A stretch of DNA of 21,959 nucleotides from a virus. The position numbers and the translations under genes were made by a program. This document shows positions 4,338-12,953 of the stretch, in pieces; the stretch's first letter is position 1; every line of letters starts with the position of its first letter. The stretch spans positions 1-21,959 of the IMG/VR virus record IMGVR_UViG_3300044225_003896; one strand, given 5' to 3'. The notes under the pieces were generated by a model, which was not told the DNA's origin, did not search any database, and saw only the letters and a program-made list of their open reading frames with translations.

Positions 4338-5333
4338 GTGCAGTCCTACAGCCTATCCCGCATGGCGGCCACCAAGACACGCCGCCCGACGATCACATTG
4401 CCGCCGATCCAAGACTCGCGCGGTGCCACCGCCGAATACACGAAGGTGCTTCGGTCTCTGGTCCGGGAGATCGCGAAACAGACGCGGGATGAGGTCGTGC
4501 CGGCGGTCGTGGCCGAAATGAACGCGCAGGCAGAGCGCCGCAAGCTGACCGCCGATGCGATCGAGGAAGATCCTTGGTTCCAGCGGCTGCTTGATCTCGC
4601 GCTTCGGCTGGGCCTGATCGCGGAGGAGATGGCGAGCCGCATCTTCCGGGTCGAGGGCAAGCGGCACACAGAAAAGTGGCTCCAGTCCGTACGGTCAGCC
4701 ATCGGCATCGACATAGGGGCGGTGATCGCACAGGAAGACCTTGAGGACGTGCTACGGCTCGCGGCCAAGCGGAATGCGTCCCTGATCCGCAACCTGTCGC
4801 AAACGACCGTCCAGCGGGTCGAGAGAGCCGCCTACGATGCGGTCGCCAACGGGACGACGGTGAAGCAGTTCACCAAGCAGTTGACCAAGGAATTCGGCAT
4901 CGCCGATCGCCGGGCGCAGTTGATCGCCCGCGATCAGATCATCAAGCTGACCAGCACGATGAATCGGGTCCGGCATGAACAGGCTGGAGTGACGAAGTAT
5001 CAGTGGTCGTCCAGCCATGACGAGAAGGTCAGGGGGCTGCACCGCGCCATCGACGGCGATATCTACGAATACGGCAAGCCGACTGAAGCGGAGGATGGTC
5101 TACCGCCGGGTATGCCGCCGAACTGCCGCTGTATCGCGAGGGCTTACGTTGTGATCGGGGGCGAGGAATTCGCACCGAACCCGCTTCCGGAAACGGCAAG
5201 CCGCTTTGCAAGACCCAGCGAGGAACTGACGCCTGAGGCGATGGCTTCGGCGCGGTCCAAGGAACGGCAGAACCAGGCATTCCAGCGGGCCGGTGTTGGT
5301 CAGCGGAACAAGCCGGGCGGGCGTCGCCGCTAA
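4338..5333 (+). CDS. Mu gpF-like minor head (head morphogenesis) protein
   Basis: A 331-residue minor capsid protein of the SPP1 gp7 / Mu gpF family, which associates with the portal and is needed for head assembly or DNA ejection. The diagnostic C-terminal region lies at about residues 192-272: ARDQIIKLTSTMNRVRHEQAG, then SSHDEKVRGLHRAIDG and PPGMPPNCRCIARAYV. The N-terminal 180 residues are helical and charged. The start is GTG at 4338, supported by GAGGAGG at 4324-4330 and a 2-base gap from the portal stop; ATG 4362 lacks a comparable site. The C-terminal tail is basic (QRNKPGGRRR). Its TAA overlaps the TAG of a reverse-strand gene, giving a tight tail-to-tail junction. Confidence 0.9.
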   Translation: MQSYSLSRMAATKTRRPTITLPPIQDSRGATAEYTKVLRSLVREIAKQTRDEVVPAVVAEMNAQAERRKLTADAIEEDPWFQRLLDLALRLGLIAEEMASRIFRVEGKRHTEKWLQSVRSAIGIDIGAVIAQEDLEDVLRLAAKRNASLIRNLSQTTVQRVERAAYDAVANGTTVKQFTKQLTKEFGIADRRAQLIARDQIIKLTSTMNRVRHEQAGVTKYQWSSSHDEKVRGLHRAIDGDIYEYGKPTEAEDGLPPGMPPNCRCIARAYVVIGGEEFAPNPLPETASRFARPSEELTPEAMASARSKERQNQAFQRAGVGQRNKPGGRRR

Positions 5334-5557
5334 CTGTCGCGGAATTGCTTCAGAAGGTCGTCGATGTCGACAGGCGGGGGCGTCTCGGTCCAGTCGCGGG
5401 CCATCGCGTCCTTCAGACCCTGCGGCGCGCACCACTCATAGATCATCGCGTGCCGATGCTCGTTGGCCTCTTCCATCCGCCGCACCTGCATCCGCAATTC
5501 CTTCACCTCAAGCATGAGGTCGAGGATCAGGGTTTTGAGTTCGCGGTCGGTCGTCAT
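5330..5557 (-). CDS. Small reverse-strand coiled-coil protein
   Basis: A 75-residue protein with a likely coiled coil at about residues 5-35 (LKTLILDLMLEVKELRMQV has Leu/Val at heptad positions) and an acidic C-terminal half with a Pro-rich turn (TETPPPVDIDDLL). The residue make-up looks like a real protein rather than an antisense shadow. No Shine-Dalgarno sequence precedes the ATG, but TATGAT lies at 5571-5566 on the reverse strand, which would give a nearly leaderless transcript. No -35 match is seen. Function unknown. Its stop overlaps that of the gpF-like gene and it is divergent from the protease gene, so it is an insertion in the head operon. It might regulate by antisense transcription or be a moron; both are guesses. 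Confidence 0.55.
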   Translation of the reverse strand: MTTDRELKTLILDLMLEVKELRMQVRRMEEANEHRHAMIYEWCAPQGLKDAMARDWTETPPPVDIDDLLKQFRDS

Positions 5558-5592: not shown

Positions 5593-6744
5593 ATGGAATT
5601 TCGGGACAGCCTGACGCTGGACGCATCGGGCCTTCGCTTCACCAATGACGGGTTTCTCGTCGGCGATGCGAAGGTCTCTCGCGCCGGCAATGTGCAACTG
5701 TACCTGGGCGCGGAGCTTGGCCTGACGGACGAGCGCGCCAGCAAGCCGATCGGCGTCTACCGCGACCCGAACACGGTCTTTGACGAAAAGAGCATGATGT
5801 CTCTCGCTGGCCGACCGGTCACACGCGGGCATCCGGCGGGCGTCGTCACTGCCGCGAACTGGAAAGACCTGTCGGTCGGCCAGATGGGCGGCGTCATCCG
5901 CCGTGATGGCGAGCATGTCGTCGCACCGATGGCAATCATGGATCACGCGGCGGCGAAAGAGATCGAGGCAGGCGCCCGGTCCCTGTCCGCCGGCTACACC
6001 GTCTCGCTGGTCGCCGATGAAGGCGTCGCAGAGGACGGCACACCCTATCAGTTTCGGCAGGCGGGACCGCTCCGGTTCAACCATGTCGCATACTTGCCCG
6101 ACAACAATCCAAGGGCAGGCAATACCCGTTTCGGTGACGCGGCGGGCAGCGGGGCTTCGGCTCCTTCATGGGGCATCGCGCCCCTTCATGACCACACTCC
6201 AAAGGAGCCTCCCATGGCTGATCTGACCACCGTGGTCGTCGGAGATAGCGCGGTGCAGATCGCCGCGTCCGACGCCGCAAAGCTGGAGGCTTTCAAGGCT
6301 TCCATGACCAAGGCGCTCGCCGATGCCGAGAACGCCCATACCGTCGCGGTTGCCGCGAAGGATGAGGAAATCGCGAAGGCACATGCGGCCCTCGACGACG
6401 CGAAGGGCAAGATCTTGTCCGACGCCGATCTCGACAAGCGCGTCCAGGACCGCGGCGATCTCGTCGCGCTGGCCGGCGCCATCGCCAAGGACGTGAAGAC
6501 GACCGGCGTTTCCGATGCCGACATCCGCAAGGCCGTCGTGGTCGCCAAGCTCGGCGATGCAGCGGTCGAGGGCAAGTCCGCCGCCTACGTCGATGCCCGC
6601 TTCGACATCCTCGCCGAGGACGCGAAGAAGGGCGCCGACCCGGTCGCTCGCGCGCTTGCCGACGGCAAGCCGGCCCCGGTCACCGACAACGGCCAGACGG
6701 CCTACGAAGCGCGCCTCGGCGACGCCTGGAAGGGAGCGAAGTAA
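5593..6744 (+). CDS. DUF2213 prohead protease fused to scaffold
   Basis: A 383-residue protein whose N-terminal 180 residues match DUF2213, a phage maturation-protease-like family. It has VTRGHPAG (His 80), VGQMGGVIRRDGEHV near 95-109, GARSLSAGY (Ser 132) and FNHVAYLPDNNPRAG near 162-176. By analogy with herpes/HK97-type proteases, His 80 and Ser 132 are candidate catalytic residues. A linker at about 181-207 leads to a helical, Ala/Lys/Asp-rich C-terminal region (about 208-300) typical of scaffolds. The protease would cut itself and the scaffold as the head matures. A second start lies inside at 6214. GAGG precedes the first ATG. The cement gene begins directly after the stop codon. Confidence 0.88.
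   Translation: MEFRDSLTLDASGLRFTNDGFLVGDAKVSRAGNVQLYLGAELGLTDERASKPIGVYRDPNTVFDEKSMMSLAGRPVTRGHPAGVVTAANWKDLSVGQMGGVIRRDGEHVVAPMAIMDHAAAKEIEAGARSLSAGYTVSLVADEGVAEDGTPYQFRQAGPLRFNHVAYLPDNNPRAGNTRFGDAAGSGASAPSWGIAPLHDHTPKEPPMADLTTVVVGDSAVQIAASDAAKLEAFKASMTKALADAENAHTVAVAAKDEEIAKAHAALDDAKGKILSDADLDKRVQDRGDLVALAGAIAKDVKTTGVSDADIRKAVVVAKLGDAAVEGKSAAYVDARFDILAEDAKKGADPVARALADGKPAPVTDNGQTAYEARLGDAWKGAK
6201..6207 (+). promoter_or_regulatory. Internal ribosome binding site for nested scaffold
   Basis: AAAGGAG lies six bases before an in-frame ATG (6214) inside the protease-scaffold gene, a better ribosome site than the one at the gene's own start. It sits in the linker between the protease and coiled-coil regions, where an independent scaffold start would be expected. 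Confidence 0.7.
6214..6744 (+). CDS. Nested scaffold protein (internal start in protease gene)
   Basis: A 176-residue product in the same frame as the protease-scaffold gene, starting MADLTTVVVGDS with AAAGGAG six bases upstream. The sequence is helical and charged (ALADAENAHTVAVAAKDEEI, then KAHAALDDAKGKI), consistent with a coiled-coil scaffold that organises capsid subunits and is then removed. The arrangement matches lambda C/Nu3 and similar phages, in which a protease gene contains a separate start for the scaffold. This gives excess scaffold over protease, as assembly needs. The evidence is the ribosome site, the ATG and the domain boundary; expression itself is inferred. The C-terminus (TAYEARLGDAWKGAK) may contact the capsid protein. 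Confidence 0.7.
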   Translation: MADLTTVVVGDSAVQIAASDAAKLEAFKASMTKALADAENAHTVAVAAKDEEIAKAHAALDDAKGKILSDADLDKRVQDRGDLVALAGAIAKDVKTTGVSDADIRKAVVVAKLGDAAVEGKSAAYVDARFDILAEDAKKGADPVARALADGKPAPVTDNGQTAYEARLGDAWKGAK

Positions 6745-7203
6745 ATGGCTGTCCAGTCCACCTACAACGAGACCATGGATGCGGCCCGCGCCGGTATGCG
6801 GGCCAACATGGAGCCGGTCGATCTGATCTCCCGCACCGTCGAGACGGCGGCCGGCGTCGGCTTCGGCAAGGTCGTCCAGCAGGGCGGTGCCGACAAGGGC
6901 TGCAAGTCTGATCTCTCCGGCATGACCGCGCAGACCTACGTCGGCATCACCATGCGCGAGCGCGGTGTGCGGCCGGAAACGCCGAACGCCTTCGCCCAGT
7001 ACGAGTCCGCGCTGATTATGCGCAAGGGCGTCATCTGGGTCGAGGTCGCGGTCGCGGTGACCCCGGCCGACATCGTCACTGTCACGCTCGCCTCTGGCGT
7101 CATCGGCAAGACTGCCGTCGGCGCGGGCGTCGTGGCCATTCCGAATGCGCGGTGGGAATCCAGCACCTCTGGTGCCGGCCTCGCCATGCTCCGTCTGGGC
7201 TAA
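6745..7203 (+). CDS. Capsid cement / decoration protein
   Basis: A 152-residue protein between the scaffold and the major capsid genes, the usual position for a cement protein that stabilises the mature head. It resembles the family annotated as structural cement protein Gp24: an N-terminal arm (MAVQSTYNETMDAARAGM), a beta-rich core with VGFGKVVQQG, YVGITMRERGV and KGVIWVEVAVAVTPADIVTV, and a C-terminal strand segment (ARWESSTSGAGLAMLRLG). The start ATG directly follows the TAA of the previous gene, and GGAG lies inside the end of that gene. The assignment rests on pattern and position, and DUF2190-type decoration proteins are a related alternative. Confidence 0.75.
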   Translation: MAVQSTYNETMDAARAGMRANMEPVDLISRTVETAAGVGFGKVVQQGGADKGCKSDLSGMTAQTYVGITMRERGVRPETPNAFAQYESALIMRKGVIWVEVAVAVTPADIVTVTLASGVIGKTAVGAGVVAIPNARWESSTSGAGLAMLRLG

Positions 7204-7215
7204 GGAGACCCGATC

Positions 7216-8139
7216 ATGAACCAGCACGTCTTTGACGCCCAGGCTGCAACCGGCTTCGTCCGGTCGCAGACCACCCATGTCGAGCAGGGGGTCAACGAGA
7301 CCGTCTATCCCGACATCCAGTATCCGTCGCTCATCCCGGTGGACACCTCGGCGAACCCGTTCGCCCAGACGGTCACCTACTACTCGAGCGACAAGGTCGG
7401 TCGGGCCGATTGGATCAACGGCAATGCCGATGACATCCCGATGGCCGGCTCCGAGCTGAACGAGCACAAGACCGCCGTCTACACCGCGGCGATCGGCTAC
7501 GGCTACGGCTGGGAAGAGATCAACGTGGCCATGATGACCGGCCGCAATCTCTCCAACGACGATGCCATGGCGGCGCGTCGGGCCTACGAGGAGATGGTCG
7601 ATCGCGTGGCTCTGGCCGGCGATGCGACCAAGAACTTCAAGGGCCTGATCGACAATGCGGCGGTCACCGCCGCGAGCGTGACGACCGGTGCCTGGGCGAC
7701 CGCCACCGAGGATCAGATCCTCGCCGACGTGAACGAGGTGCTGCTCGGCATCACCACCGACACGAAGGAAACGGCGATGGCGAACACGCTCCTGCTTCCC
7801 TACGAGAAGCTGAGCATCCTCGCCTCCAACCGTCTCGGCGATACCCAGGGCACGATCCTCGACTTCCTTCGCCGCAACAACGTCGTCACCTCGATGACGG
7901 GCCAGGAGCTGACGATCCGCACGGTGCGCGGCCTCTCCACGGCTGGTGCCGGCGATACGGCACGCATGGTGGCCTACCGCCGCGATCCGTCGGTGCTGAA
8001 GCTGCACATCCCGATGCCGCACCGGTTCCTGCCGGTTTTCCAGGATGGCCCGCTGCACTGGGTCGTTCCGGGCGTCTTCCGGCTGGGCGGTCTCGATATC
8101 CGCCGTCCGAAGGAAGTTCGCTACGGCGACGGCATCTGA
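7216..8139 (+). CDS. Major capsid protein, DUF2184 family
   Basis: A 307-residue protein, the likely main building block of the icosahedral head. It fits the DUF2184 major capsid family: an N-terminal arm with PDIQYPSLIPVDTSANPFAQ, then ADDIPMAGSELNEHKTAV, a long helix region around YEEMVDRVALAGDATKNFKGL (about residues 125-145), and a C-terminal part with MVAYRRDPSVLKLHIPMP and RLGGLDIRRPKEVRYGDGI. These suggest an HK97-like fold. AAGGAG at 7202-7207 gives a strong ribosome site eight bases before ATG, fitting a high-copy product. It follows the cement gene by 12 bases and precedes the connector genes. Confidence 0.88.
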   Translation: MNQHVFDAQAATGFVRSQTTHVEQGVNETVYPDIQYPSLIPVDTSANPFAQTVTYYSSDKVGRADWINGNADDIPMAGSELNEHKTAVYTAAIGYGYGWEEINVAMMTGRNLSNDDAMAARRAYEEMVDRVALAGDATKNFKGLIDNAAVTAASVTTGAWATATEDQILADVNEVLLGITTDTKETAMANTLLLPYEKLSILASNRLGDTQGTILDFLRRNNVVTSMTGQELTIRTVRGLSTAGAGDTARMVAYRRDPSVLKLHIPMPHRFLPVFQDGPLHWVVPGVFRLGGLDIRRPKEVRYGDGI

Positions 8140-11934: not shown

Positions 11935-12351
11935 GTGGCTGAAAAGAAGATCGACGGCGTCCTCTACTCGGTGACGCCGATCCTCGCCAAGCGGGCGGTC
12001 GTCCTGCAGGCGAAGCTGACGAAGGTGATCGGCCCGGCGCTGCCGGCGCTGATCACTGCGCTGGCGAACCGGACGGACGAGGCGGCACAGCAGAAGGCAG
12101 CGATTGATGCGCTGAATGCCATTGCTGCGACCATCGACCCGGAAGCCTTCGGCGACCTGGTGGAAGAGATCGTCCAGCTTGCCGAGGTGCAGGATGGTGG
12201 CCGCTATCGCCGGGTCATCATGGATCAGGACTTCACCGGCAACCTGCAGGGCATTCTTCCGGTCGTCGGCTTCGTCCTTCAGGAGCAGTTCGGTGATTTT
12301 TTTACCGCACTCACGGCGAATGGAGCGCGAAAGCTTCCGGCAAAACCCTGA
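11935..12351 (+). CDS. Tail assembly chaperone, short (G-type) form
   Basis: A 138-residue protein starting at GTG 11935, with GAGGTG upstream. It is helical and acidic (KLTKVIGPALPALITALANR, DPEAFGDLVEEIVQLAEVQD, then GGRYRRVIMDQDFTGNLQGI). It lies between the tube and tape measure genes, where the lambda G/GT-type chaperone belongs. It would bind the tape measure and recruit tube subunits. Near the 3' end the frame runs through seven T residues (GAT TTT TTT ACC), and a second long frame opens exactly there. The zero-frame product ends TALTANGARKLPAKP, which is likely the non-shifted tail. See the frameshift extension. Confidence 0.85.
   Translation: MAEKKIDGVLYSVTPILAKRAVVLQAKLTKVIGPALPALITALANRTDEAAQQKAAIDALNAIAATIDPEAFGDLVEEIVQLAEVQDGGRYRRVIMDQDFTGNLQGILPVVGFVLQEQFGDFFTALTANGARKLPAKP
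12297..12303 (+). promoter_or_regulatory. -1 ribosomal frameshift slippery site T TTT TTT
   Basis: Seven T residues are read in the zero frame as the last base of GAT then TTT TTT, fitting the X XXY YYZ heptamer rule with both codons re-pairing as TTT after a -1 slip. The -1 frame carries a TGA at 12294-12296 immediately before the T-run and is then open to 12551. A weak stem about 18 bases downstream (GGAGC 12322-12326 with GCTTCC 12333-12338) may stimulate slippage but is not convincing. Confidence 0.85.
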
Positions 12352-12551
12352 GCGAGGCCGAGATTGGCAAGATCGCGCCGAACCTGAACCTGTTTCTGTG
12401 GCGGCCGGTCATATCTGAGCCGCCGATGTGCACGCCGGGCGACCTCAATCAGTGGGTGACGCTCACCGATCTGCTCGACATGCACGAGGCGCTGGACCTG
12501 AAGGGCGCCCTGCAGGAACGGGCGATGGAGAAGGACGGGCCGTCAGGCTGA
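12303..12551 (+). CDS. Frameshift extension (T part) of tail assembly chaperone
   Basis: After a -1 slip at the T-run, translation continues as YRTHGEWSASGKTLSEAEIG and onward for 82 codons, ending at TGA 12549-12551. The fused chaperone would be 205 residues (123 + 82). The extension is plainly protein-like: NLNLFLWRPVISEPPMCTPG, DLNQWVTLTDLLDMHEALDL. It has no good start codon of its own near the T-run (first ATG at 12426), so frameshifting is the simplest way to make it. In lambda the GT form binds the tape measure through its T domain, and the same role is expected here. The last 9 bases overlap the 3' end of a convergent reverse-strand gene. The fusion assignment is inferred from sequence. 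Confidence 0.85.
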   Translation, partial: YRTHGEWSAKASGKTLSEAEIGKIAPNLNLFLWRPVISEPPMCTPGDLNQWVTLTDLLDMHEALDLKGALQERAMEKDGPSG

Positions 12552-12953
12552 CACGTAGAACGCCGCGAAGATCAGGACCGCCAGAGCTCCGAGGGTCACT
12601 TTCAGTGCTGTCATTTCCCACGTAGCGGGTTCAGCGTATTCCTTCTGGTCGGCGAGGACCTGCCGCTTCATCGCGCGGCGATCCACTTCGGCCTTATCCT
12701 TCGCGGAGAGGGTCGAGCTGCCGCAACGGCTGCAGACCGGGCCCTTCGCCCCGTTCGCGACGATGATCCAGACGATCAGCCACAGGCCGCCGGTAAATAT
12801 CGTCAGCAGCAAGTGCAGAATGTGGTTCGGCTTATTCTCATAGGCCATCACCCATTCGTTTTCGCGTGTGCAAAAGCCCTGAACTGCTTTCTGGCCCATC
12901 TCGTCCTCCTGACTTCCCTTATATCCGCACTCGCACTGGAGTTCGCAACTCAT
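12543..12953 (-). CDS. Zinc-ribbon-like membrane protein (reverse-strand insertion)
   Basis: A reverse-strand protein of up to 136 residues placed between the chaperone and the tape measure. It has CECGYKG near residues 7-13 and CSRCGSS near 74-80, a split zinc-ribbon pattern, with a hydrophobic span between them (HILHLLLTIFTGGLWLIVWI, about 45-66) and a second span at the C-terminus (about 113-135). The HILHLLL..TGGLWLIVW motif recurs in small phage and bacterial membrane proteins of unknown role. The start is uncertain. ATG at 12953 keeps the first Cys pair but has no ribosome site and shares CATG with the tape measure start. ATG at 12899 (118 residues) has AGGAGG five bases upstream. A superinfection or envelope role is only a guess. 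Confidence 0.65.
   Translation of the reverse strand: MSCELQCECGYKGSQEDEMGQKAVQGFCTRENEWVMAYENKPNHILHLLLTIFTGGLWLIVWIIVANGAKGPVCSRCGSSTLSAKDKAEVDRRAMKRQVLADQKEYAEPATWEMTALKVTLGALAVLIFAAFYVSA

Follow-up and report, generated by a model that had tools for sequence, protein, structure and literature searches.

A candidate internal translation start between the protease and scaffold parts of phage DUF2213 genes

Does a phage head maturation protease gene of the DUF2213 type encode one protein or two? The question is raised by a 21,959-base linear virus fragment from IMG/VR (IMGVR_UViG_3300044225_003896), referred to in its entirety as the window, in which a Shine-Dalgarno (SD) sequence and an ATG lie in frame inside such a gene. 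The original prediction took these for a nested start between protease and coiled-coil parts, comparable to that of lambda Nu3. We consider it highly probable that the gene yields a protease-scaffold fusion plus a separately initiated nested scaffold resembling Nu3 or Mu Z. The nested start itself is, judged from sequence, very likely real and functional.

The gene belongs to a head module encoding a portal, a MuF-like protein, the DUF2213 protease, a cement protein of the Pam3/E217 type, and a PF09950 major capsid protein. The features that concern us are as follows.

5593..6744, plus strand: parent gene (383 aa, 39.8 kDa) for a DUF2213 head maturation protease joined to a scaffold domain
5593..6120, plus strand: protease domain, residues 1-176, with the Pfam DUF2213 match ending at residue 176
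6121..6213, plus strand: disordered linker, residues 177-207, bearing the internal ribosome site (pLDDT < 50 at 177-208)
6201..6207, plus strand: internal Shine-Dalgarno AAAGGAG, read from the sequence and kept in homologs
6208..6213, plus strand: six-base spacer CCTCCC, read from the sequence
6214..6216, plus strand: internal start codon ATG, parent residue 208, alignment column 360
6214..6744, plus strand: predicted nested scaffold protein, 176 aa, 17.9 kDa, with a beta hairpin, a 49-residue helix and a helical C-terminus
6745..7203, plus strand: capsid cement protein (Phage_cement, E217 gp24/Pam3 gp6), Pfam PF22758, E 2e-31
7216..8139, plus strand: major capsid protein, presumed scaffold partner, Pfam PF09950, E 2.5e-80

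The predicted AAAGGAG, six-base spacing, and in-frame ATG are exact in the junction sequence, CCAAAGGAGCCTCCCATGGCT. The ATG keeps the parent frame (6214 - 5593 = 621 = 3 x 207) and is codon 208 of 383. In the window protein, the peptide diagnostic of a start at this ATG would be ADLTTVVVGDSAVQIAASDAAK, its N-terminus predicted at Ala209 after Met excision. The pattern AAGGAG-N4-9-ATG occurs only twice on the plus strand of the window, at the internal start and at the major capsid gene (7216), and nowhere on its minus strand.

Elsewhere in the window, the tail assembly chaperone gene (Phage_TAC_15, 11935-12551) contains GATTTTTTTACC at 12295, past which the -1 frame stays open, with protein-like sequence, to about 12551; a -1 frameshift like that of lambda G/GT is probable there. 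A 136-aa cysteine-rich ORF with hydrophobic stretches runs on the minus strand inside the tail operon (12543-12953). It starts head-to-head with a tape-measure-like gene, the ATGs of the two overlapping at 12952, and its sole match, to DUF4234, is sub-threshold. Another minus-strand ORF, of 75 aa (5330-5557), lies between the MuF-like and protease genes, overlaps the end of the former, and has no match in the phage collection.

Domain boundary and fold

The parent protein matches Pfam DUF2213 (PF09979) with an E value of 1.3e-36 and 126.5 bits, against a cut-off of 22, and the head maturation protease family phrog_530 over residues 10-382 (E 6e-80). AlphaFold2, run on a 75-sequence alignment, gave a confident beta domain at residues 1-168, pLDDT below 50 at 177-208, and beyond the linker a beta hairpin (211-224), a 49-residue helix (225-273), and further helices. 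Foldseek ranks the T4 prohead protease gp21 (5jbl; probability 1.00, E 7.9e-4) first among PDB matches to the model, and below it come weak matches to assembly proteases of herpesviruses. Residues H80, S132, and H164 are invariant in the 75 sequences; their catalytic role, and proteolytic activity itself, are putative. With its capsid-protease fold and conserved His and Ser, the window protein fits the DUF2213 head maturation protease family. A Tn-seq study classes the Burkholderia BCAM1066 DUF2213 among essential bacterial domains (PMC8770471); contrary to that label, DUF2213 is a phage head protease family.

The placing of the ATG between protease and coiled-coil parts is borne out by the Pfam match, which stops at residue 176, and by the poorly ordered stretch that follows. 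Modeled alone, the nested 176-residue product has a mean pLDDT of 89.8, with zero residues below 50, and it matches the C-terminal part of phrog_530 (E 8.8e-24). Residue 208 thus stands at the end of the disordered linker (177-208), between two folded parts, and the internal ATG opens the scaffold-like part alone.

Conservation of the internal start

A 19-sequence alignment set against the collection was too diverse, and was therefore replaced by three closer alignments; a scan of genome contigs found four prophage loci. One locus (L171), whose frame breaks just before the junction, was excluded as a probable contig error. The resulting set holds 114 non-redundant homologs at less than 90% identity, with loci from IMG/VR plus genomes. 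A site was counted when an in-frame ATG no more than 45 codons past the conserved GD at the end of the protease domain was preceded by an SD with an anti-SD duplex energy of at most -5 kcal/mol. Nearly all of the first 25 homologs have a junction ATG with SD, though linker residues differ; the junction reads gaaggaggccacATG in Silvergun and gacaaggagacgaaaATG in Pam3. Far from being lost among close homologs, SD and ATG are both retained in 106 of the 114, and in 15 of the 17 representatives below 50% identity. The remainder comprise four ATGs without a strong SD by the threshold, two GTG cases, and two Chaseviridae without any. The GTG of one (L003) has a good SD at the junction, and in the other GTG-tagged case (L192) an ATG with a weak SD (aggacacacagtATG) is present too. 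In L123, counted among the four, an insertion of about 80 residues lengthens the linker, and an ATG with SD (-5.3) immediately precedes the scaffold part. An insertion of about this size, VLHEKHMNGTAPTTGPEGEKSQQKMMDLMVAALEAL and more, is present in the protease-scaffold linker of L124 as well as L123.

Could such a site arise by chance, or could the Met be conserved for the sake of the protein? Conservation and synonymous controls rule out the former. Such a site is present in 10.3% of control 45-codon windows taken elsewhere in these genes, and the threshold is reached by 76 of 661 in-frame ATGs at other positions (Fisher p about 1e-50 for the junction ATGs against these; the homologs share ancestry and are not independent events, so that this and the other p-values given here are not strict probabilities). 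Alignment column 360 is Met in 108 of the 114 homologs, and a contiguous SD core of 4 nt or longer precedes all 108, whereas among other ATGs 102 of 666 have one. Synonymous recoding with each gene's own codons, repeated 500 times, yielded such a core in 78 homologs on average and in 87 at most, compared with the 108 observed. The SD core uses all three reading phases (64/35/11), and a single amino-acid motif therefore cannot account for it. Folding of the mRNA from -25 to +20 of the internal start falls below the gene average in 105 of 106 cases (mean z +1.36). A second conserved Met column, column 102, served as a control, and has neither SD excess nor mRNA accessibility; its 34 apparent ATG-plus-SD occurrences, from the energy-based count, are codon-driven by the contiguous-core test. 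Since the SD at the junction exceeds synonymous expectation and column 102 shows no such excess, conservation of the Met for protein reasons is also ruled out. Each of the four controls (synonymous codons, reading phase, sliding window, and mRNA accessibility) points toward selection on an RNA start signal. Site, RNA-level conservation, and domain boundary are all computed here.

Two products from one gene

We propose that initiation at 5593 would give the protease-scaffold fusion, and that independent initiation at 6214, from the conserved Shine-Dalgarno in the unstructured linker, would give the scaffold alone. The scaffold would bind the major capsid protein and line the procapsid, and the fusion would bring the protease in through the scaffold part that the two products share. 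Cleavage of the scaffold by the protease, and perhaps of the capsid protein too, would then let DNA enter. Scaffold role, copy ratio, and cleavage are inferred by analogy with Pa193, lambda, and Mu.

A structural guide is PDB entry 9b40, whose chain G, the "gp24 scaffolding protein" of Pa193, gives a profile match over the DUF2213 domain (E 7e-17). Residues 286-326 of Pa193 gp24, EMSGE included, form a helix-turn-helix pentamer beneath the capsid five-folds, or pentons; its authors propose that gp24 is a scaffold and liken the helix-turn-helix to the P22 scaffold (PMC11042391). These residues fall after the junction, and EMSGE is also found, well past the junction, in PB1 gp22 and Pa204. This supports a scaffold function for the post-junction part in Pa193 gp24. 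The same role may be proposed by analogy for the window phage, in which fold and synteny fit a capsid-binding scaffold, capsid contact having been seen in the distant homolog Pa193 gp24 alone. The Nu3-like reading draws support from conservation, RNA-level controls, fold, and the Pa193 gp24 structure.

The main alternative is that the fusion alone is made, much as in P2 gpO, with the protease freeing the scaffold by a cut in the linker while the internal ATG goes unused. Chaseviridae relatives without an internal start suit such a scheme, and so does a linker whose disorder makes it cuttable. It leaves unexplained, however, why SD and ATG are kept more often than synonymous codons would predict, across several reading phases and where the mRNA is unfolded, and we regard it as improbable. 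Slighter still is the likelihood that the nested protein is made but serves mainly as a protease regulator or inhibitor, or as an internal capsid pin, instead of as bulk scaffold. The Pa193 gp24 helices do stay under the pentons in mature heads (PMC11042391), but the cement and capsid gene neighbors, the coiled-coil make-up, and the P22-scaffold-like helix-turn-helix suit a scaffold better. Most doubtful of all is a relic of gene fusion, in which two ancestral genes with their own starts merged and the internal site has yet to decay: the linker does resemble an intergenic stretch and varies in length among homologs, but a relic should decay, and the site persists below 50% identity and across a linker insertion.

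The original prediction that the internal site is the stronger of the two held only in part. The internal SD core is longer in the window (a contiguous match of 6 nt, against 4 nt for the parent), and across the family the mean SD energy is better at the internal start (-7.27 versus -6.00, p 2e-4). Against this, the anti-SD duplex energies in the window tie (-7.9 versus -7.8), and the internal start has the more strongly folded -30 to +30 region (-18.4 versus -14.2 kcal/mol); parent starts across the family likewise lie in less folded mRNA (-11.2, versus -12.9 for internal starts, p 3e-4). With two sites that look roughly matched in strength, the window sequence by itself does not predict that scaffold would be made in excess.

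Occurrence among phages and comparison with known systems

Among 50,697 phage records, about 1,770 have a match to a DUF2213 protein of this family. Comparable internal sites occur in PB1 gp22 (gatgagggtaatgaaATG) and Pa204, both Pbunavirus, and in two T1-like Drexlerviridae (aaagaggataatgaaATG in IME347), AbTJ, yong1, and Aaphi23. The internal start is absent from the three Chaseviridae examined (ST32, Berlingot, and SppYZU05), which implies that the fusion can function without a nested start in some lineages. Chaseviridae DUF2213 homologs that lack it (L022, L023, and L227) offer a natural contrast to other members. None of 30 public phage records, those of PB1, Pa204, and Pam3 included, annotates the nested CDS, as foreseen in the claim that annotation with one start per frame would miss it; gene calling of that kind would hide a putative capsid-assembly protein. 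In the literature searched, with most subscription papers outside our reach, we found no report of a DUF2213 nested start, and its wide occurrence through DUF2213 genes appears to be undescribed in searchable papers. For XM1, a Spartan-like gp46 has been proposed as the prohead protease, and the scaffold gene is stated to be unidentified (PMC10457771).

We incline, modestly, toward a broader view, in which the nested start is an ancestral and near-universal rule in DUF2213-type phages (T1-like, Pbunavirus, Pam3-like, and many prophages) that was lost in one lineage, the Chaseviridae. In that case, many sequenced phages with no identified scaffold would encode it as an unannotated second product of the protease gene. 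The nested start also offers a directly testable model of dosage and cleavage.

The nested-scaffold arrangement itself is of an already known kind, and the window gene, with a candidate in-frame SD and start codon at its protease/scaffold boundary, matches the lambda C/Nu3 and Mu I/Z type in that respect. Lambda gpC is an S49/ClpP-type protease, its fold unrelated to that of the window protease, which resembles T4 gp21; the two are not of the same family, Pfam giving DUF2213 alone for the window protein and the best fold match being T4 gp21 and not ClpP-type. The likeness to lambda is that there, too, a scaffold gene occupies, in frame, the 3' end of the gene for the capsid protease (Shaw and Murialdo 1980, cited in PMC8508860). 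The Mu-like protease I/scaffold Z genes of Mu and PaMx73 resemble the window gene in that the protease gene contains an SD and an internal start in frame, the start in PaMx73 being Val177, after ACGAGGA (PMC4378225). They differ in that the Pfam matches of the window protein are to DUF2213 only. P2 gpO and the HK97 gp4/delta domain system are not known to have a separately initiated nested scaffold. Both resemble the window gene in linking protease and scaffold in capsid maturation (PMC8508860). Pa193 gp24, called a putative scaffold, and Pam3 gp5 (Pam3_05, annotated "head scaffold protein") are sequence homologs of the window protein, and the internal SD and ATG are present in Pam3 and in the Pa193 relatives PB1 and Pa204.
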